64,000 nucleotides of DNA. Origin: a bacterium. Its GTDB lineage: Bacteria; Omnitrophota; Gorgyraeia; Zapsychrales; Zapsychraceae. A program made the translations under genes and the position numbers. Positions 11,877 through 26,135 of the stretch are shown here, one piece after another. The stretch lies in the NCBI GenBank assembly GCA_030429765.1, contig JAUIER010000020.1, positions 1 through 64,000 of the forward strand, given 5' to 3'. Under the pieces are notes generated by a model that worked only from the letters and a program-made list of their open reading frames with translations, was not told where the DNA came from and searched no databases. Position 1 is the first letter of the stretch. Each line of letters begins with the position of its first letter.

Positions 11877-12926
11877 TTAGCATATGCGCGGCAATTGATC
11901 GCCCGCCAGCAAATCCAGGATACGGTTGGCCCCGATACGGCTTTTAAGGATCACCAGCGATGGGTGTTGTTCAGTCACTCTCCCAATGAAGTTTGCGGAT
12001 CCAAATCCCGGATGGTCTTGCATAATGGCCAGGGCCCGCTCAGCTTGGTCACCCGGTACAAACGCGACAAAGCGCCCCTCATTCGCGACATACAATGGGT
12101 CCAGTCCGAGCAATTCACAGGCCGAGGCCACATCCTCTCTGACCGGAATGCGAGCCTCGTCAATCTCCATCGATAATCGTGTTGACGACGCGATTTCATT
12201 CAAGGCGCTCGATAGTCCACCGCGCGTTAAATCCCGCAGGCAATGCACCTCGATATCGGCGTCAATTAGTTCCATGACGACATCTCCCAGCGGGCATGTA
12301 TCGCTGGTAATGGCTGATTCAAATTCCAGTCCCTCACGCATGGCCATCACCGCCATGCCATGCCGCGCGAGATCGCCATTGACGATAATGGCATCACCGG
12401 CTCGAACGCTCGATGGAGCGATGGTCAACGGATGATCAATGGTCCCGATCCCTGATGTGTTAATAAAGATCCCGTCGCCCTTGCCGCGGTCGACGACCTT
12501 GGTGTCACCGGTCACAATTTGGATCCTGGCTGCGTCAGCAGACCGGCGGATCGATTCACACACAGTCCACAGCGTCGGCATATCGAGTCCTTCTTCCAGG
12601 ATCAATCCCAAACTCAAGCTGTGCGCCCGCGCACCGGCCATGGCCAGATCATTCACCGTTCCGTTCACCGCCAGCTGTCCAATATCGCCGCCCGGAAAGA
12701 TCAATGGATTGACCACATACGAGTCCGTGGTGTACGCAAGATTGTCCGACGATACATTGAGTACGGCTGAATCATGCCCGGGAGCATGACGGGTGTCCTC
12801 ATACAGATGCGCGAAGATCTGATCGATCAGCTGATGCATGAGTTTGCCGCCGCTGCCGTGCGCAAGCTGCACCTGGGTGTGCTGTGTGATCGGAAGCGGA
12901 CATGTGGGATTGAATTCTGTCGTCAT
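11877..12926 (-). CDS. hypE: Hydrogenase maturation protein HypE
   Basis: 349 aa. HypE dehydrates the carbamoyl group on its C-terminal Cys to the thiocyanate that supplies CN ligands to the NiFe active site. The protein ends in Pro-Arg-Ile-Cys, the expected functional tail. An ATP-binding PurM/AIR-synthase fold is shown by [13 protein letters not shown] near residue 23, HDSAVLN and GDTKVVDRG. It is the last gene of the hydrogenase operon and starts 4 nt after hypD. Confidence 0.97.
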
Positions 12927-12930
12927 AGTT

Positions 12931-14028
12931 CTAAGTGGTTAATGATTGACCTCGATATCGATAATACGCCGCGCACGCGCCCTCGGATGAGACCATCGTG
13001 GCGCCTAACGGATGCTCCGGTGTACAGGTGGTGCCAAAGGCCGGGCAATCAAACGGTTTCTTGTGTCCCTGCAAAACAAGTCCGCTGATGCAATCCGCGC
13101 TTTCTTCCGCTTGTATACCTCTGACATTAAATTTTGTCTCGGCATCGTACATGCGGTATTCGTCGCGTAACTGAAAACCGCTGTGCGGGATCTGTCCAAT
13201 GCCGCGCCATTTACGCGTGCCGATTTCAAATACACGCGTCAACATCTGCTGAGCCGGTTGATTGCCCTGCTTGATGACCGAACGGACATACTGATTCTCA
13301 ACATCGTGACGTCCCTCTTCGAGCTGCTTTACGCACATCAGCACGCCTTGTAAAATATCCAGCGGTTCAAACCCGGTGACGACGATCGGGACCTGATACT
13401 TTGCCGCCAGCGGATCATACTCATGATATCCCATAACGGCACACACATGTCCGGCGGCTAAAAAACCCTGCACTCGATTGTTCGTCGACGACAGAATCGC
13501 TTCAATCGCCGGCGGTACCAGCACGTGAGACACCAGAATGGAGAAATTGGCGATCCGCTGGGCATGGGCTTGGTACACCGCCATCGCATTGGCCGGCGCC
13601 GTGGTTTCAAAGCCTACGGCAAAAAAGACAACTTCCTTATCCGGATTTTCACGGGCGATCTTCAAGGCGTCGAGCGGTGAGTAAATAATCCGCACATCCC
13701 CGCCATTGGCCTTGACCGCAAATAGGTCCAGATGACTGCCCGGCACCCGCAGCATGTCACCGAAGGATGTAAAAATCACCTCAGGGCGCGACGCGATGGC
13801 AATGGCCTGATCGATCAGCTCTAGAGGCGTCACACATACCGGACAGCCGGGTCCATGCACGAGTTCAACTTTGTCCGGTAAAAATTCATCAATCCCAAAC
13901 TTGACGATTGCGTGTGTCTGACCGCCGCAGACCTCCATGATACAGTGATGACGTGTCGTGATCCGGTGAATCTCGTCGGATAGTCGTCGGGCAAGATCTG
14001 GGTCCCGGTATTCGTCTAAGTATTTCAT
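12931..14028 (-). CDS. hypD: Hydrogenase maturation protein HypD
   Basis: 365 aa [4Fe-4S] scaffold protein on which the Fe(CN)2CO unit is assembled together with HypC. Conserved signatures are present: CGGQTHAI near residue 35, [10 protein letters not shown] near residue 66, and the C-terminal cluster of Cys in [21 protein letters not shown] and [10 protein letters not shown]. The start codon overlaps the hypC stop (ATGA), so translation is coupled with its partner. Cytoplasmic. Confidence 0.97.
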
Positions 14029-14282
14029 GCCGATTCTGCCTCCAGCTCGTCGAGTTCTCCCATCTGCCGCAGGTATTCGAATACCTTGACGGCCTCGTCT
14101 TCCTGCACAATACTGATCGCAAAGCCCACATGCACAATAACGTATTGACCTTGCCGCGCCTCCGGGACATACGCCAGGGAAACGGTCTTGGTGATCCCGC
14201 CAAAATTAACCCGGGCCTGTGTTTGCAGCGGGTCGTCGTGTTGGAGAATTTCAGTGATTTGTCCGGGTATGGCCAGGCACAT
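14025..14282 (-). CDS. hypC: Hydrogenase maturation chaperone HypC
   Basis: 85 aa from the ATG at 14282. The family requires the mature N-terminus Met-Cys-Leu-Ala-Ile-Pro, whose Cys2 binds iron and HypD, and this ATG gives exactly MCLAIPGQ. A longer reading frame upstream overlaps hypF and is not used. The beta-barrel core follows ([21 protein letters not shown]). The gene sits 8 nt after hypF and overlaps hypD by 4 nt. Confidence 0.96.
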
Positions 14283-16625: not shown

Positions 16626-16766
16626 CTAACGTTTGAGTTTGAACAGGCAAAAGCCGCCAATCAGCGCTGCCAGGACAATACTCGTCAGCAACGCGGTCGA
16701 TGACATGTGCGTGTGTGCGGCAGAGCAATGAAGATAGATATTATGATTTATGAATTCAATAAACAT
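16626..16766 (-). CDS. Unannotated 46-aa membrane peptide with His/Cys-rich N-terminus, inside the hyp cluster
   Basis: 46 codons in the gap between hypB and hypF. The ATG is 15 nt after the hypB stop, and AAAGGGG lies about 9 nt before the ATG, overlapping the end of hypB. The N-terminal half reads MFIEFINHNIYLHC then SAAHTHM: four His, one Cys and two Met in residues 1-21. Residues about 24-42 are a single hydrophobic helix (TALLTSIVLAALIGGFCLF), and the protein ends Lys-Leu-Lys-Arg. By the positive-inside rule the tail is cytoplasmic and the His/Cys segment periplasmic. I do not recognise the family. Position between two nickel-hydrogenase maturation genes suggests a role in metal handling or complex assembly; this is inference. 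Confidence 0.72.
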   Translation of the reverse strand: MFIEFINHNIYLHCSAAHTHMSSTALLTSIVLAALIGGFCLFKLKR

Positions 16767-16781
16767 TGTCGTTGTGCCCCT

Positions 16782-17462
16782 TTATGTTTCAACAAATTTG
16801 GCCTTGACGCCTACGGAGGATTCACGTTTGTCCTGAAGCCACTGGATCCATTCGTCGAATCCGGTGCAGGATTTGACGGATATCTTCATCAGCGGCGCTT
16901 CCTGATTGAGTTTACGAATGTCCGACTGGACACGGTCCATATCAAAATCAATGACGTCGATTAAATCCATCTTGGTTAACAGGATGATATCCGCCACACG
17001 GAAAATAGTCGGATACTTGGCGACTTTATCGTCGCCCTCACAGATGCTAAGCAAGGCCACCTTGAGATTTTCGCCTAAATCAAATTCCCCGGGGCAGACC
17101 ATGTTGCCGACATTTTCGATAAACAGGTAATCGGCCTGGTCCAGCGGTAAATCCCGGGCAGATTGCGCGATTTGATTGGCGTACAGATGGCAACTCAATC
17201 CAGTATTGATCTGCGTGACTTCATACGCGTGCGGCTGCAGCCGGTCGGCATCACGTGAGGTTTCCAGATCACCGACGATCACCACTGATTGCTGGGCTGG
17301 CTTCAAGGCGGAAATCGTCCGCTCGAGCAGTGTGGTCTTACCGCTGCCCGGCGAGCTGATCAAATTCAGCGCCACTGTACGGTACTGCCGAAAAAGGTCT
17401 CGATTGTTTTCAGCAATAAGATCATTGGCCTTGAGAACGCTCTTTACGACATTGACTTTCAT
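16782..17462 (-). CDS. hypB: Hydrogenase nickel-insertion GTPase HypB
   Basis: 226 aa SIMIBI-class GTPase that loads nickel into the hydrogenase large subunit with HypA. The P-loop is SSPGSGKTTLLE (about residues 35-46); GDLETSRDADRL, the metal-binding NTGLSCHL and LLTKMDLID are also present. It lacks both the N-terminal CxxCGC motif and a His-rich stretch seen in many HypB proteins, so it has only the G-domain metal site. The start overlaps the hypA stop (ATGA). Confidence 0.97.
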   Translation of the reverse strand: MKVNVVKSVLKANDLIAENNRDLFRQYRTVALNLISSPGSGKTTLLERTISALKPAQQSVVIVGDLETSRDADRLQPHAYEVTQINTGLSCHLYANQIAQSARDLPLDQADYLFIENVGNMVCPGEFDLGENLKVALLSICEGDDKVAKYPTIFRVADIILLTKMDLIDVIDFDMDRVQSDIRKLNQEAPLMKISVKSCTGFDEWIQWLQDKRESSVGVKAKFVET

Positions 17463-17821
17463 CGGGCACCTTCACCTTTCTGTGTTCCGTTGATGGATAG
17501 TAAAATAATATCATTTCCCTGAATGATCCGGACCTTTGTCCCTTGACAGGACGGGCATTGAAAATCATGGATCATCGGCTTAAAGCGCGTCTCGCAGAAC
17601 TGACACTCCGCCAGTCCTGTTTCCTCCGTGAGCGCCAGCGTCGCTTGCTCCGCCACGGTTCCCTGTCGAGCCGATTGAAATGCGGTCTGCATCATTTCCG
17701 GAATGACCTGTCGCAACTCGCCGGTTTGCAGGTGAATATCGGTGATACGGTCCAAGTGATTTTCACGCGCCACGGTATCAACTTGATCCAGCATTGCTTC
17801 AATCAGGGAGAACTCATGCAT
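17459..17821 (-). CDS. hypA: Hydrogenase nickel-insertion protein HypA
   Basis: 120 aa from the ATG at 17821, which gives the family-typical N-terminus MHEFSLIEAMLDQV; the N-terminal Met-His is the nickel ligand. A zinc-binding domain follows with CQFC and CPSC pairs (about residues 73-95). The ATG is 5 nt downstream of the hoxH stop. A longer frame reaching into hoxH is rejected because it would bury His2. Confidence 0.96.
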   Translation of the reverse strand: MHEFSLIEAMLDQVDTVARENHLDRITDIHLQTGELRQVIPEMMQTAFQSARQGTVAEQATLALTEETGLAECQFCETRFKPMIHDFQCPSCQGTKVRIIQGNDIILLSINGTQKGEGAR

Positions 17822-17826
17822 GGCTG

Positions 17827-19254
17827 TTATCCGCGCGCGATGCGCTGGATCACCTCGCCCTGACTGTTTTTCAATTCGATTCGAATCGGCATGTCGCCCA
17901 GGGCATGCGTCGAACAGGATAGACATGGATCGAAACAACGGATCGCTCCTTCTACCCGGTTGAGCGCCCCTTCCTCAATGTGATCACCTTTGACATATTG
18001 CCGGGCCACATCGAGAATGGCCTGATTCATCGACGGATTATTTTGGCCGGTCGCGATCAAAAAGTCGATTTGATTAAGCTTACCGTCGGGATCGGTTTTA
18101 TAGTGATGGAACAGGATACCCCGCGGCGCTTCACAGCAACCGATACCTTCCGGCTGATTTCGGCTGGCGTGGGTTTGGATGTCGGTTGATAAGATGTCCG
18201 GATCCTTCATCATCTGTTCAATCTCCTCAATCCCCGCCAGGATCTCGATAAACCGGGCATAGTGATAGTAGAAATTGCCGTGCACCGGCCTTCCCTGACC
18301 CAGCGCCCTGAACTCTTCAAATTCTTTTTGGGCTTGGGGCGTCTTCATGCGATCAATGACGTTTAGTCGAGACAGCGGTCCGACCCGGTAGATACCGTCC
18401 GGATATCCCATGGGTTTATAGAAAAAGGACTTGAGGTACGACCACGATACCGGTTTTTCCTGAATGAACTGGTGGTAGTCCAGCGGGTTCAGCCGGTCCG
18501 CGACAATGTCTCCATTCGCCGCGACCAGACGAATGCGGCCGTCGTAGAGTTCATGACTGCCGTCGTCGGCAATGAGCCCCATATGCATCGATTCAATATT
18601 GGCGAATGAATTGACCATATCCGTATGATCGGCGTGATATTTCTTGAGCAGGTCAATCGACATGTGCGTGGTCTCCAACACCTCGGGGATCCAGTCCAGA
18701 ATGGCCTGCCGGTTTTCCTTGGTTAAAGCGTAGCTCATGCCGCCCGGAACTATCCCCATAATGTGAATCTTTTTGCCGGTGATGCGTTCACTCACCTCCT
18801 GGCCGAACTTACGAAGCCGGATGCCGCGCACGCCGAGATCCGGATCCTTCTCAGCAATCCCGAAAATATTTCGGGTGGCGGGATCGGAATCCCAGCCGAG
18901 CAATAAATCCGGTGCGGAAAGATGGAAAAAGCTCAGGGCGTGTGACGAGATGAGCTGGGCCTGCTGGATCACCCGGCGCAGCAACTCGGCCGTCCGCGGG
19001 ATCTTGATCTGCTGGATCATCTCGCAGGCCTTGACACTTGAAATGGTGTGACTGACCGGACAAATGCCGCAAATACGCGGGGTAATCACCGGCATCTCCG
19101 TGTAATACCGTCCCTCACAAAATTTTTCAAAACCCCTGAACTCATTGACATGAAAGATCGCGTCGCTGACCTGTCCGCTGTCGTCCAGCTGGATGGTGAT
19201 CTTGGCATGACCTTCAATGCGTGTTACCGGATGAATAAGAATTTCTTTACCCAT
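17827..19254 (-). CDS. hoxH: [NiFe] hydrogenase large subunit, HoxH type
   Basis: 475 aa catalytic subunit carrying the NiFe(CN)2CO centre. The N-terminal L1 motif is RICGICPVSHT (about residues 60-70) and the C-terminal L2 motif is DPCLSCSTHALG. Cleavage after the His in CSTH by the maturation protease would remove about 24 residues. Motif spacing and the HoxEFUY neighbours place it in the group 3d bidirectional NAD-linked enzymes. It overlaps hoxY by 8 nt. Cytoplasmic, with no signal. Confidence 0.95.
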   Translation of the reverse strand: MGKEILIHPVTRIEGHAKITIQLDDSGQVSDAIFHVNEFRGFEKFCEGRYYTEMPVITPRICGICPVSHTISSVKACEMIQQIKIPRTAELLRRVIQQAQLISSHALSFFHLSAPDLLLGWDSDPATRNIFGIAEKDPDLGVRGIRLRKFGQEVSERITGKKIHIMGIVPGGMSYALTKENRQAILDWIPEVLETTHMSIDLLKKYHADHTDMVNSFANIESMHMGLIADDGSHELYDGRIRLVAANGDIVADRLNPLDYHQFIQEKPVSWSYLKSFFYKPMGYPDGIYRVGPLSRLNVIDRMKTPQAQKEFEEFRALGQGRPVHGNFYYHYARFIEILAGIEEIEQMMKDPDILSTDIQTHASRNQPEGIGCCEAPRGILFHHYKTDPDGKLNQIDFLIATGQNNPSMNQAILDVARQYVKGDHIEEGALNRVEGAIRCFDPCLSCSTHALGDMPIRIELKNSQGEVIQRIARG

Positions 19255-19786
19255 ATTTGACCTCTCCGTCGCCTTCGGTGGTCGGTTCGCGACCGTGAAG
19301 GATTTCTGAAATCACATAAAATATTTTATCGGCTGACGGCGGACATCCCTGAATGTAATAGTCCACCGGGACTTCCTCATGCAGCGGTCGCACCCGATCC
19401 TCGAGCTTTTGAAGGACGGGATGCGTGGGCAGGACGCCATCCAAATTGACACCGCTGTCGAGATACGCGCGTTCGAGCGCCTGTTCCTTGGTCACCCGGT
19501 TGCGGATACCGGACACATTGCCGGTGATGGCGCAATCACCTAGGGCCACGAGGATCTTGGCCTGTCGGCGGATGTGCTTGAGCTCTTCGAGATGCTCATC
19601 ACTCGCGACGGCCCCTTCGACAATAGCCACATCCACTTTGGGCAGCTCCTTGCCGTCGACAACCGGACTTTTAACAATATCGGCGAGCTTGGCCACTTCC
19701 AGCAGACGTTCATCCATGTCCAATAGCGACATGTGACAGCCCGAACAACCGGCTAGCCAAATAGTAGCGATTTTTTTCTTGCTCAT
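19247..19786 (-). CDS. hoxY: [NiFe] hydrogenase small subunit, HoxY type
   Basis: 179 aa, short as expected for group 3 small subunits, which hold only the proximal [4Fe-4S] cluster. Cluster ligands are visible: WLAGCSGCHMSLLD at residues about 10-22, ALGDCAITGNV near residue 85, and YIQGCPPSADK near residue 150. There is no Tat signal, so the enzyme is cytoplasmic. The start overlaps hoxU by 4 nt (ATGA). Confidence 0.95.
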   Translation of the reverse strand: MSKKKIATIWLAGCSGCHMSLLDMDERLLEVAKLADIVKSPVVDGKELPKVDVAIVEGAVASDEHLEELKHIRRQAKILVALGDCAITGNVSGIRNRVTKEQALERAYLDSGVNLDGVLPTHPVLQKLEDRVRPLHEEVPVDYYIQGCPPSADKIFYVISEILHGREPTTEGDGEVKYG

Positions 19787-20490
19787 AGATTGACTTTCCT
19801 TTTCTCAATCAGATCTTTGATCATCTGCGGATTTTTCTTGGATTGTCCCTGGGCCTTGTCCTTAGACCACAGCGATCCGGTCGGACAAACCTCAACGCAT
19901 TTGCGGCAGGAAGTACAGGATTCCGATTCGCCCCACGGCGTATCAAAATCCGAGATAATCCTGACCTTGTATCCTCTGTTTTTAACATCCCAGTTGTGCG
20001 CGCCCTCAACCTCGCTACAGACCCGTACACAACGGGTGCACATGATGCAGCGGTTGTGATCGATGACAAACATGGCGTGTGAGGCATCGACTTCACATTC
20101 CTGAAACAAATATGGAAACCGGACATGCTTCATCCCGACCTCGGTGGCCAGGTCCTGCAATTCACAATTTCCATTCGCCACGCAGACCGCGCAGACATGA
20201 TTGCGTTCACTGAAGAAAAGTTCAGTGATCATCTGGCGGTGACCGCTCAGCCGATCGGAATGGGTCCGGATCTTTTGATTGGGCTCGACCTGGGTTGTGC
20301 ACGACGGCAACAATTTGGATTGGCCTTCGATCTCCACCAGGCACAGACGGCACGCACCGACGTCGGTCAGCCCGTCAAAGTGACACATGCTGGGGATCTT
20401 GATATTGTGTTCCTTGCATGCCTCCATGATGGTCTGGCCGGATTCAACTTTATACGGTTCATCATTAATCGTGATCGATATTTTCGACAT
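19783..20490 (-). CDS. hoxU: Hydrogenase/diaphorase iron-sulfur subunit HoxU
   Basis: 235 aa from the ATG at 20490; GGGAGGA lies 4 nt upstream. A TTG four codons earlier is possible but has no ribosome site. The N-terminal [2Fe-2S] domain (GACRLCLVEIEG) is followed by the NuoG-type CxxCxxxxxC loop (CAVCVANGNC) and two [4Fe-4S] sites (CIMCTRCVRVC and CTSCRKCVEVC). It passes electrons between the HoxF flavin and HoxY. Confidence 0.94.
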   Translation of the reverse strand: MSKISITINDEPYKVESGQTIMEACKEHNIKIPSMCHFDGLTDVGACRLCLVEIEGQSKLLPSCTTQVEPNQKIRTHSDRLSGHRQMITELFFSERNHVCAVCVANGNCELQDLATEVGMKHVRFPYLFQECEVDASHAMFVIDHNRCIMCTRCVRVCSEVEGAHNWDVKNRGYKVRIISDFDTPWGESESCTSCRKCVEVCPTGSLWSKDKAQGQSKKNPQMIKDLIEKRKVNL

Positions 20491-20507
20491 ATGTCCTCCC
20501 AAGGGTC

Positions 20508-22169
20508 CTATCCGTTGGCTTGGAGTAAAATTTCGTTCTTACGGATTTGTTCGTCATATTCCTCATGAAAGTAGCGTAAGGTGCTAAGCAAAGGATTGGG
20601 GGCGGACATGCCCAGTCCGCACAAACTGCATTCCTTGACCATCACGGCCAATTGTTTGAGCAGGTCCAGATCGCGCTGAACGGCCTTGCCGGTGACGATC
20701 CGGTCGAGCATGTCGTATAGTTGTTTGGTGCCTACCCGGCACGGAACACATTTACCGCACGATTCGTCCATGCAGAATTCCATGAAGTATTTGGCGACGT
20801 CTATCATGTTGGAGGTTTCGTCCATGACAATCAATCCGCCGGAGCCCATGATTGATCCTAATTCGGCCAGGGATTCATAATCCACCGGCGTATCCAGATG
20901 CTGCTCGGGGATACATCCGCCTGACGGCCCGCCGGTCTGGGCGGCCTTGAATTTTTTGCCGTCCTGGATGCCGCCGCCGATATCAAAGATAATCTTTCGC
21001 AGGCTGGTTCCCATGGGCACTTCAATGAGCCCCGAGTACTGAACCTTACCGGCAAGCGCGAAGACCTTGGTGCCCGCACTCTTCGTGGTGCCAAGTTGTG
21101 TGTACCATTCGCCGCCATGTTCAATAATCGGCGCGATGTTGGCGAGCGTCTCGACATTGTTGATCAGAGTGGGTTTACCCCACAATCCCGACTCGGCGGG
21201 ATACGGCGGACGCGGCCGTGGTGTGCCGCGCTTGCCTTCGATCGACGCGCACAGGGCCGTCTCTTCGCCACATACAAAGGCGCCTGCGCCGATACGGATT
21301 TCAATATCAAACGCGAATGATGAATTCATCACGCTCTTGCCAAGCAATCCGAGTTTGCGGGCCTGCTTGATGGCCGTCTCAAAACGTGAGATAGCCGTCG
21401 GATATTCACCACGGATGTAGGCGAAGCCTTGTGAGGCGCCGACGGCGTAGGCCGCGATGACCATGCCTTCAATGACGCGATGCGGATCTCCCTCCAGGAC
21501 ACTCCGGTCCATAAATGCCCCGGGATCACCTTCGTCGCCGTTACACACCACATATTTTTGATCGGCGACATATTTGTACACCGTTTCGAACTTGAGTCCC
21601 GTCGGAAAACCCGCGCCACCCCGGCCGCGCAAACGGCTGTGCTTGATCTCGGCTATTACCTCTTCGGGTGACAACAGATTAATCGCGCGGGCGAGCGCCC
21701 GGTATCCGCCGACAGCGATATACTCATCGATACTTTCCGGATCAATATTGCCGCAGTTGTGAAGCACAATTTTATGCTGTTCCTTAAAGAACGGGTCTTC
21801 CAGGGCATTGGTGTATGGTGTGTCGCGAAATTCATGGAACAGCATCAGCTCGGGAACCGGTTTTTGCTGTTTGACATGCTGGTCCAGGATTGTATCCAGA
21901 TTTTCACTCGATACGGTTTCATAGATGGTTTCATCGGGTTTGATCTTGACGAGCGGTCCTTGATTGCAGGGGCCCATACAGCCCGACGCTGAGACCTTGA
22001 TTTTATCCTCCAATCCCTGTTCCTTGACCCGCGACTGCAGATCCGTGAGGATCTTCTCGCTGCCCGATGAAAGGCATCCGGCTCCGCAACACACGCAAAT
22101 CTTGTGGGAGTTCATGGATTCCTGGGTCTTGAGTTTCGCAGACAGCTCTTCAAATTCATGATAGTCCAT
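20508..22169 (-). CDS. hoxF: NADH-binding diaphorase subunit HoxF
   Basis: 553 aa. An N-terminal thioredoxin-like [2Fe-2S] domain (CVCCGAGC and SGCMGPC, about residues 25-75) precedes a NuoF core with the FMN/NADH-binding [22 protein letters not shown] and FVCGEETAL segments. A C-terminal [4Fe-4S] motif follows ([11 protein letters not shown] and CSLCGLG). It exchanges electrons with NAD. The ATG overlaps the hoxE stop by 1 nt (TAATG) and has a GGAGC ribosome site. Confidence 0.95.
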
Positions 22170-22681
22170 TAAGCAGCTCCGGTTTTTGAATCGATGACCG
22201 ATTGGGTATCTTCAGGATTTAGCTTGGGGATGACTTCGTCATCAATCACCACCGCCGGTGCTAATCCGCAGGCACCGAGGCAACGCGCCACCTGAATGCC
22301 GAGCTTATTGTCTTCGGTCACTTGACCGGGCTTGAGGTGATAATGGTCTTCGATCTGATCAAGAATCTCCTGGGCCCCTTTGACATAACAGGCGGTTCCC
22401 GTGCAGACCAGACAGGTGTGTTCCCCTTTTTGTTTGAGTGAAAAGAAATGATAAAACGTGACGACCCCGTAAACCCGGCTGGCCGGCAGATGCAGCGCAT
22501 GCGCGATGTGCCGGATGACCTCAAGGGGCAGATAACCGAACATCCCCTGGGCTGTGTGCAGCACCTGAATCAGGGCGTCCGGGCGGCCTTTACTCTTTTT
22601 GATGGCCGCGTTTAGGAGTTTCGTGCGGGAATCATCCGCGTTGAGAATTTTTGGTTCTTCTGTCTTTGTCGATCCAGTCAT
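22169..22681 (-). CDS. hoxE: Diaphorase subunit HoxE (NuoE-like)
   Basis: 170 aa NuoE-type thioredoxin-fold [2Fe-2S] protein. Ligands are [11 protein letters not shown] (about residue 98) and CLGACGLAP (about residue 138). The first 35 residues are polar and not conserved. It is the first gene of the structural operon, directly downstream of an extended -10 promoter. The ribosome site before the ATG is weak (GGAA). Confidence 0.94.
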
Positions 22682-22813: not shown

Positions 22814-23290
22814 CTAGTTAGTGTCAGCTTCGATGCCAAATTCATCGTTTTGTATCATTTGAACCAGGAAATCAATCGCTGATTCAAGATTCTTGGCGGC
22901 CTGAGGGCTCAGCTCTTCGCCAAAACCGTCAAACGTATAGCCCCTTATTCCCAGGACGTATCCGATGGTATCGGCCCGGTACATCTGCTCGACAATCTGC
23001 ATGAGGGCCTCGGGCTTAAGATGGTGCGATGTGATGTGACCCGCCGGTTGGGGCTGGATCTGACTGAAGGTGTAGGGTTCCTTGCCGTTGGTATCCGCGT
23101 CGATAAAGATGACCCGATCGTATTCGCGGATTTCCTCGGCATGTTCGATATTGATCATCATCATTGAACGCGTGGTAACATTGGGAAGGCTATACTCGAG
23201 AAGACGCTCGATCGCCTTCGGACCCAGCCCGTCATCCATTCTGGCGATGTTGCCGTATCCCAAAATGAGGACAGATGGTTGCGTCGTCAT
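22814..23290 (-). CDS. Hydrogenase maturation protease (HyaD/HoxW-like)
   Basis: 158 aa. GYGNIARMDDGLG near residue 12 carries the conserved metal-binding Asp of the M52 endopeptidase family; FIDAD and the HHLKPEAL His follow. The enzyme would remove the HoxH C-terminal peptide after nickel insertion. It is separated from hoxE by the hox promoter and abuts the deacetylase gene with no spacer, so it belongs to the upstream transcript. Confidence 0.92.
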   Translation of the reverse strand: MTTQPSVLILGYGNIARMDDGLGPKAIERLLEYSLPNVTTRSMMMINIEHAEEIREYDRVIFIDADTNGKEPYTFSQIQPQPAGHITSHHLKPEALMQIVEQMYRADTIGYVLGIRGYTFDGFGEELSPQAAKNLESAIDFLVQMIQNDEFGIEADTN

Positions 23291-24247
23291 TTAGACCGAC
23301 CAGTATGGCGAAAGATTCGACTCAAGCGCTCCCATGCGCAGATCAAATTCATCAATGACATCGATCCGTGACTCGGTCGGTCGCTCTTCAAAGTAGATGT
23401 CCTTGCCGTTGATCCCATTCAGGAAATTATAGAGACAATTCGGCAGCATTTCGATGTTGTAACCGCCTTCCAGGGTGGCAAAGATATGATCGAAGTGCTC
23501 GTTGAGTTTCTGCCCCAAATAATAAAATGTGTTCGCGCTCCATTTTAAATCCAGCAGCAGATCATTTTGATGGGCGTCAAAACCGGCCGATACGGCCACG
23601 ACATCAGGCTTGAACTGTTTGGCCACCTTGATCCAAAAGTCGAACGCCCGCAGGCAGAGATCATCCGCGCTTCCCGGCGGCATAGGGATATTGATTGTAT
23701 AGCCCTTGCCTTCATCTGCTCCGATCTCATCCTCTGTCCCCCATTCCGGAAATGCCGGATACTGATGCAGCGACCAGTACATCACCTGATTGGAATCGTA
23801 AAAAATCTTTTCTGTTCCATCTCCGAGGTGGCCGTCAAAGTCGACGATCAAGACGCGCCGTCCTTGATTGACCAGATGTTGCGCGGCTATCGCGACATTG
23901 TTAAAGATACAGAAACCACTGGCGTGATGCGGATACGCGTGATGGCCAGGCGGTCTTACCAGGGCAAAATCCTGCTGGTCAGCGGCCATGATCGTCGCCC
24001 CGACGGCGTAACACGCCGCCTCATAGCTGGCCGGACTGACCACGGTGTCGGCGTCAAGATGACCGCCGGTCTGACAGAGGCTTTTGACCTGATCAATATA
24101 CTCCTCTGAATGAATCAGGGTGAGATAAGGTTCGCCATTGATCAATGAGGAAGATGGAATGCCCGCAAAGGCCTCCAGCCTCTTCTTGTTTTCCGGATGC
24201 ATCCCGGTGTCATGTTCCAGAAAGATGGTGTCGGTAATTATGTTCAT
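23291..24247 (-). CDS. Histone-deacetylase-family hydrolase (AcuC-like)
   Basis: 318 aa from the ATG at 24247. A longer TTG frame would overlap the preceding gene. Catalytic features of the class I/II zinc deacetylase fold: RPPGHHAYPHHASGFC (paired His), DFDGHLGDGT with zinc-binding Asp and His, SLHQYPAFP, and the third zinc ligand in SAGFDAHQND. These proteins remove acetyl groups from lysines or small amines. The gene directly follows a CoA-transferase/GNAT fusion, so it may reverse acetylation made there. Its stop codon abuts the protease ATG. Cytoplasmic. Confidence 0.88.
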   Translation of the reverse strand: MNIITDTIFLEHDTGMHPENKKRLEAFAGIPSSSLINGEPYLTLIHSEEYIDQVKSLCQTGGHLDADTVVSPASYEAACYAVGATIMAADQQDFALVRPPGHHAYPHHASGFCIFNNVAIAAQHLVNQGRRVLIVDFDGHLGDGTEKIFYDSNQVMYWSLHQYPAFPEWGTEDEIGADEGKGYTINIPMPPGSADDLCLRAFDFWIKVAKQFKPDVVAVSAGFDAHQNDLLLDLKWSANTFYYLGQKLNEHFDHIFATLEGGYNIEMLPNCLYNFLNGINGKDIYFEERPTESRIDVIDEFDLRMGALESNLSPYWSV

Positions 24248-24260
24248 CGGTTTCAACGCG

Positions 24261-26135
24261 TCAATGAGCGGTATATTTTTGCAGGTCAAGGGACAGAAAG
24301 TATCCGTGCACCTGCCGGCTTTCTTTGACGGTAAAGTTATGGTTCTTAAAGATTTTCAGCATCGGTGTATTTGAATGCGCCACATAGGCGGTCAGTTTTT
24401 TGATGCCGTGTTCTTTGGCCGCGTCGATCAGGTGTTCGCACAAAAATGCGCCGATGCCGATGGCTTGATACTCTTCTTTGACGATGATGCCGATCTCCGC
24501 GACATCATCGCCTTGACGGATGTAACGTCCTAAACAAACCATCTTCGCGTACGGCGTCCAGTCATCATAACCGGCAATCGCCATGTCCGTGTTGTAATCG
24601 ACCGCTACACGGCCCTGGGCCTCCTGCCGCGGCAGGGCCTCGACATTTGTCAGATAACGTTGATAGATGGTTTCTGGTCGGTGACTATAGAAGAAGTCTT
24701 GAATGGCCTTTTCGTCACTGGGCGTAAGCGGCCGGAAATAGATGGTCTTGTCTTGAAATGTTTTGCTGTGGGGGATGTCCTCTTTGACCTTGCTTTGATC
24801 GTCCTTAAGCGTTTTTTGATCATGATAGACAAAATTTTTGTGCTTGAGATAGTCCAGTAATTCATCGCGGAATTTGGGATGCGCGATCTGAACCAGGGCC
24901 AGTCCGCGTTCGCGGATATTCTTGCCGTGCAGATAGGCGACCCCGTACTCTGTAGCGACGTAATGTACATCGGCCCGGGAAGTGACGACCCCGGCGCCTT
25001 CAGATAATATCGGCACGATCCGCGAGACACTGCCGTTTTTCGCTGTCGACGGAACGGCGATAAAAGATCGTCCGCCGAGCGAGCGCTTGACTCCGCGCAC
25101 AAAATCCACCTGTCCGCCAAATCCGCTGTAAAAGCGTGTGCCGATGCTGTCCGAACACACCTGTCCGGTAAGATCGATCTGAATGGCCGAGTTGATCGAG
25201 ACCATGTTGGGATTCTGGCAGATGGTAAACGGATCATTGGTGTATTCCGACGGATAAAATAGAAAATCATCATTTTGATGAATGGTATCATACAGCTTTT
25301 TGGTTCCCAGGACAAAACTCACGACCGACTTGCCGCGATTGATACGTTTAAACTGGTTGGTGATGTTTCCGTTGTTATACAGATCGACAACACCGTCTGA
25401 GATCATCTCCGAGTGTATACCCAGATCATTCTTGTTCTGAAGATTGAGTAACACGGCATCGGGAATGTTGCCGATACCCAGCTGAAGCGTGTCACCATCC
25501 TGAATATAGCGGGCCAGATGTTTACCAATCTGCATCGAGATATCATCCGGCTCTCCTTGCGGAAAGGCCATGAGCTCTTCATCCGCCTCGACGAGATAAT
25601 CAATACAATTCAGCGGTATCTGGGCCGGGCCGAAGGTCTCGGGCATATTCTTATTGACCTGCGCGATGACAATGTCCGCCATCGAGATCGCTGCCGGCAG
25701 GATGTCCACACTCACTCCCAGCGACACCATGTTGTCAGCGTTGGGTGGCGACACCTGGATCAGCACCGCATGGATCGGCATCTGCCGCGTCTTGAACAAT
25801 CGCGGGATTTCCGATAAGAAAATCGGCATATAGTCACAATGCCCTTGAGCTACGGATTCCCGAATGTTGTGTCCGATAAAAAAGGCGTTGTGTCGAAAGT
25901 TATGCGTGTATTGGGCGTCGGCATAGGGCGCGATACCGACGGTCAGGATGTGAACGACTTCATTGTCGCGAAAGTTATCGGCGTTGGCGACGAGTGATTT
26001 GACCAGAAATTGCGGCTCAGCGCAGCCGGATCCGATCAGGATGCGTTTGCCCTTCTGGATTTTACGAATGGCCGTGTCGACATCAAGCCAGACCGGCTTT
26101 TTCGTGGGGTATTGATACTCTTCGTACAGAAACAT
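24261..26135 (-). CDS. CoA-transferase/acetyl-CoA hydrolase fused to a GNAT acetyltransferase
   Basis: 624 aa. Residues about 1-450 match the 4-hydroxybutyrate CoA-transferase/acetyl-CoA hydrolase family: GSGCAEPQFL, GIGNIPDAV, the IHSEMISDG segment with the expected catalytic Glu, and GFGGQVDFVRG. Residues about 465-624 are a GNAT domain (FRPLTPSDEKAIQDFF; acetyl-CoA loop near EYQAIGIGAFLCEHLI) resembling that of Pat protein acetyltransferases. The fusion couples acyl-CoA turnover to protein or small-molecule acetylation. AAGGTG precedes the ATG. It leads a three-gene unit with the deacetylase and the hydrogenase protease. Confidence 0.9.
   Translation of the reverse strand: MFLYEEYQYPTKKPVWLDVDTAIRKIQKGKRILIGSGCAEPQFLVKSLVANADNFRDNEVVHILTVGIAPYADAQYTHNFRHNAFFIGHNIRESVAQGHCDYMPIFLSEIPRLFKTRQMPIHAVLIQVSPPNADNMVSLGVSVDILPAAISMADIVIAQVNKNMPETFGPAQIPLNCIDYLVEADEELMAFPQGEPDDISMQIGKHLARYIQDGDTLQLGIGNIPDAVLLNLQNKNDLGIHSEMISDGVVDLYNNGNITNQFKRINRGKSVVSFVLGTKKLYDTIHQNDDFLFYPSEYTNDPFTICQNPNMVSINSAIQIDLTGQVCSDSIGTRFYSGFGGQVDFVRGVKRSLGGRSFIAVPSTAKNGSVSRIVPILSEGAGVVTSRADVHYVATEYGVAYLHGKNIRERGLALVQIAHPKFRDELLDYLKHKNFVYHDQKTLKDDQSKVKEDIPHSKTFQDKTIYFRPLTPSDEKAIQDFFYSHRPETIYQRYLTNVEALPRQEAQGRVAVDYNTDMAIAGYDDWTPYAKMVCLGRYIRQGDDVAEIGIIVKEEYQAIGIGAFLCEHLIDAAKEHGIKKLTAYVAHSNTPMLKIFKNHNFTVKESRQVHGYFLSLDLQKYTAH

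Follow-up and report, generated by a model that had tools for sequence, protein, structure and literature searches.

Does the only wide gap in an otherwise tightly packed hydrogenase operon conceal a small membrane protein gene and, if it does, is the product likely to be concerned with nickel? The operon lies in a 64,000-nucleotide stretch of DNA (the window) from a 3.3-Mb, 95%-complete Omnitrophota MAG. Its genes are all on the minus strand, in the order hoxE-F-U-Y-H, hypA, hypB, the candidate ORF, hypF, hypC, hypD, hypE (Table 1). Enzymes of group 3d have been reported in Omnitrophota, for example in Ca. Aceula and Ca. Zapsychrus (PMC8542988), and the hypB genes of these two organisms are among the nearest relatives of the hypB studied here. 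Elsewhere in the hoxEFUYH-hypABFCDE operon, junctions overlap or leave no more than about 20 nt, and the 184 nt between the end of hypB (16782) and the hypF ATG (16597) form the sole larger gap. An earlier hypF start at a TTG (16660) was rejected: HypF homologues begin near the ATG, which is preceded by a strong ribosome site (GGGGGA, -8.6 kcal/mol).

The gap contains a complete ORF that runs from ATG to TAG (MFIEFINHNIYLHCSAAHTHMSSTALLTSIVLAALIGGFCLFKLKR) and covers 141 of the 184 nt, leaving 15 nt before it and 28 nt after. Ahead of the helix lie His 8, 13, 18 and 20, Cys 14 and two Met, of which Met 1 is the initiator and Met 21 internal; two of the four His sit in a repeat-like stretch, CACACGCAC. 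The helix, TALLTSIVLAALIGGFCLF (Kyte-Doolittle 2.25 over 19 residues), includes a second Cys (Cys 40), and the C-terminal tail is KLKR. The original prediction, which named no strand, had described this ORF correctly in all of its sequence details, and the ribosome site that it placed across the end of hypB is likewise present. AlphaFold2, run on the single sequence, models the peptide as one helix (residues 2-45, mean pLDDT 82.6), a prediction that adds little; many short helical peptides would be expected to behave likewise. In size and shape the ORF product fits the small membrane proteins that have a single hydrophobic helix and no more than some 50-70 aa. The ORF also has the position of a hyp operon component, lying within the operon on the same strand with a ribosome site of its own.

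Table 1. Coordinates of the candidate ORF, its predicted ribosome site and the surrounding hydrogenase genes in the window
Feature	Position	Strand	Basis
46-codon ORF: N-terminal segment with 4 His and 1 Cys, one hydrophobic helix, KLKR tail	16626..16766	-	sequence, AlphaFold2
ORF codons 8-23 (His 8, 13, 18, 20, Cys 14, Met 21), predicted outside	16698..16745	-	positive-inside rule
AAAGGGG, candidate ribosome-binding site, overlaps hypB stop codon (TAA)	16777..16783	-	sequence, pairing energy
hypB, 226 aa, without N-terminal His/Cys region, G-domain Cys-His site present	16782..17462	-	NCBIfam TIGR00073, E 4.7e-79
hypF, 768 aa	14291..16597	-	NCBIfam TIGR00143
hypA, 120 aa, 4-nt overlap with hypB	17459..17821	-	PF01155, E 2.5e-28
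hypC	14025..14282	-	PF01455
hypD	12931..14028	-	PF01924
hypE	11877..12926	-	PF00586/PF02769
hoxE-F-U-Y-H, NAD-linked cytoplasmic [NiFe] hydrogenase, group 3d type	17827..22681	-	HoxU NF005745, E 6.9e-104; NuoF-type HoxF; PF00374, PF01058
hoxE	22169-22681	-	position and overlap with hoxF only

The ribosome site stands 10 nt before the ORF's ATG. Its predicted anti-SD pairing energy of -7.0 kcal/mol is reached by 23% of long ATG genes in this genome versus 6% of internal ATGs. Gaps simulated with an order-2 Markov model of intergenic composition contained an ATG ORF of at least 46 aa in 3.6% of cases, such an ORF with a ribosome-site motif in 0.4%, and one with a strong helix as well in about 0.01% (2 of 20,000), a per-gap value that overstates the case because the reader who singled out the ORF was seeking such features. 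A survey of real gaps provides a second comparison. Across 1.2 Mb of sequence from this genome, 72 gaps of 120-260 nt lie between co-directional genes. In these gaps three sense ORFs of at least 44 aa had an equally strong site, and all three encode helix proteins with clear gene scores (10.6-18.9). The antisense strands of these gaps yielded no site-bearing ORF of at least 44 aa and at most one shorter one (41 aa, without a helix). The hypB-hypF gap did not itself qualify for the survey because the simple gene caller stretched hypF to the upstream TTG.

Codon-type evidence is ambivalent, placing the ORF between genes and non-coding sequence. Its synonymous codon choice is gene-like (0.127, compared to 0.137 +/- 0.148 for genes and -0.155 +/- 0.109 for random sequence). 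Its frame-specific Markov score of -1.3 is lower than that of 86% of gene N-termini and higher than that of 97% of simulated non-coding ORFs. The gene/non-coding density ratio is only 2.2, falling to 0.7 among helix-type pieces. The helix half scores as coding (+3.2 bits), and the AT-rich first half, which holds the His residues, is not gene-like (-5.1 bits). Taken jointly, the chance estimates, the gap survey and the codon data favour a real gene, though not strongly.

Searches for relatives returned only the peptide itself in its own genome and no homologue in any of 92 relatives or across 384 genomes from the phylum, a comparison in which short diverged peptides can escape detection. The few weak matches in the 384-genome search did not exceed the expected number, and the best outside match (L164, E 0.0015 for one genome) was discarded on account of an internal stop. 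Plasmids, Pfam, NCBIfam, PHROGs and the PDB gave no match beyond chance; a VPDSG-CTERM sorting tail (E 0.5-1) and Cyt_c_ox_IV (E 0.16) both fell far under the cut-off. Among relatives of the HypB, the nearest reach 63-67% identity, and at the threshold applied no HypB turned up in the one other genome from the genus.

A comparison of loci in which hypF follows hypB revealed distances of 6, 6, 18, 26 and 39 nt (L076, L080, L082, L113 and L088, respectively) and, in L077, of 887 nt. A genome of the same family, G030 (L024/L104), has 540 nt at this junction, filled by a HycI-type maturation protease (L024:6667-7186). A comparable helix ORF directly upstream of hypF is absent from all of the hypB-hypF loci compared. 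The window also encodes a HycI-type maturation protease, at 22814-23290, upstream of hoxE. Derivation of the ORF or the gap from a displaced protease gene was considered and rejected, as the gap has no convincing match to either protease.

These comparisons bear on a reading in which the 184 nt are an untranslated spacer, the scar of a rearrangement that placed hypF after hypB, with the ORF open merely by chance. Within the phylum hypF seldom follows hypB, the protease found between the two genes in G030 is located elsewhere here, the peptide has no homologue, and the coding score is intermediate, with a His half unlike genes. The His residues are scattered and their enrichment is weak, the count being attained by 3-4% of pieces (four or more His in 46 aa were counted in 2.9% of pieces cut from genes and in 4.2% of random ORFs), which is near chance. 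Against a spacer stand the small chance of finding site, helix and length together and the lack of convincing similarity between the gap and the protease genes. We consider a spacer possible but rather doubtful. A third reading, that the act of translation rather than its product matters, would have ribosomes handed on from hypB to the start of hypF, 28 nt past the ORF stop. The 15-nt and 28-nt spacings to the neighbouring genes would suit such coupling, but hypF has its own strong site and the gap RNA has no Rfam match and no unusual structure (folding z +1.19), making this a very improbable account. Promoter-like sites in the gap occur at chance level only.

With respect to nickel, the original prediction observed that HypB lacks the usual N-terminal metal-binding region, which is correct, and proposed that the peptide stands in for it as a nickel-handling or anchoring factor, which is unsupported. 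Closer HypB homologues, from Omnitrophota, some Deltaproteobacteria and Planctomycetota, begin at the same residue and also lack a His/Cys region; longer readings of some of them are an artefact of choosing the most upstream possible start. Cys/His-rich N-termini occur among more distant homologues, such as those of Kiritimatiellales. All but one of the HypB homologues compared retain the G-domain CH site, and the present operon has this site and HypA intact. According to a review, the high-affinity site at the N-terminus is unique to HypB of E. coli, and H. pylori HypB binds nickel at the G domain (PMC7055735). Since closer homologues do without the N-terminal region and the review confines the high-affinity site to E. 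coli, there is no gap for the peptide to fill, and the homologous hypB genes without this region that were examined have no such peptide next to them. Relatives with a HypB of this type thus manage without it. An N-terminal CxxCGC or His-rich region would resemble the ORF in bringing His/Cys residues near HypB, but such regions are cytoplasmic, form part of HypB itself and follow another pattern (the HypB of L079 has 13 His among its first 47 residues).

A nickel or anchoring factor could operate in two ways: an outward His/Cys face might bind and hand on Ni2+, or the peptide might tether HypB or the Hox enzyme to the membrane. The location between hypB and hypF and the four His and one Cys within 20 residues are consistent with this proposal, as is the result that no nickel permease of the CbiM/NikM, NicO or HupE/UreJ families was found in the genome, in a search that covered these three families. 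However, a permease is unlikely to be built from a lone 19-residue helix. The positive-inside rule predicts that the His/Cys end faces outward and therefore away from HypA and HypB, which are inside, and the hydrogenase is of the soluble, cytoplasmic Hox type. The peptide matches no recognisable nickel chaperone or storage family or motif (CxxCGC, His runs) in Pfam, NCBIfam, PHROG or the PDB. The searches gave no sign that its His and Cys residues are conserved. These points, together with the normality of a HypB without the N-terminal region and the review's account of the E. coli site, render a nickel or anchoring factor very unlikely. More unlikely still is the specific version in which a lineage-specific outward His/Cys peptide, made together with HypA and HypB in a host without the three permease families, captures Ni2+ or organises maturation at the membrane. 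Only if the peptide did bind nickel would it have a bearing on HypA/HypB supply in bacteria whose HypB lacks the N-terminal metal region.

The explanation we prefer, with moderate confidence, is that the ORF is a genuine gene for a small membrane protein restricted to this lineage, sharing a transcript with hypA-hypB and hypF and using its own site for translation. The existence of a real gene at this position seems somewhat more probable than its absence. The suggestion that a small membrane protein gene had been overlooked here accordingly stands as plausible, with moderate support from the filling of the gap, the ribosome site and the helix. What is directly established is the ORF, the ribosome-site sequence, the position and the absence of detectable homologues. 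From these, the gene would presumably be transcribed with its hyp neighbours, and ribosomes would start on it at the stop codon of hypB. Its product would be inserted into the membrane as one helix, with the N-terminus out and the C-terminal KLKR in. If functional, it would most likely act as other single-helix small proteins do, by packing against and modulating a larger membrane protein, and its hyp operon position would set the timing of synthesis without implying nickel handling. Translation would place it in the large group of orphan small membrane proteins that consist of a single helix, as one more example hidden in an operon gap.

Several known systems offer partial parallels. The bacterial single-helix proteins MgrB (47 aa) and YohP (27 aa) are similar to the ORF product in length, in having one helix and in having no other domain (PMC8404706, PMC7549839); they have no known sequence relation to it, and the ORF is without a known partner. 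The extended hyp operon of Nostoc includes putative transmembrane ORFs, asr0689/asr0690 and Npun_R0366/R0365, that adjoin and are expressed with hyp genes (PMC3126725), a precedent that speaks for a real gene here. The likeness to the present ORF is one of position and features, namely hyp adjacency and a putative transmembrane region. The Nostoc ORFs differ in being conserved in N2-fixing cyanobacteria, located upstream of the hyp genes and tied to the Hup uptake hydrogenase (PMC3126725). Genome G054, whose hypF was the nearest homologue detected (56% identity), encodes between feoB and hypF a Cys-rich protein of 49 aa that has one helix and looks like a FeoB-associated protein (L135:1282-1431). 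This protein shares with the ORF a single helix and a place directly upstream of hypF. It was rejected as a parallel in that it follows feoB, has its helix first and its Cys-rich tail last, and shows no visible sequence relation.

Two further gaps in the present genome (G000:C1:215797-216979) hold very short one-helix ORFs, of 36 and 35 aa, whose coding scores are like that of the hypB-hypF ORF. Elsewhere in the window, we identified an acetyl-CoA hydrolase/transferase fused to a GNAT acetyltransferase domain (24261-26135) and, adjoining it, a histone-deacetylase-family gene (23291-24289), which possibly form an acetylation/deacetylation pair beside the hydrogenase operon.
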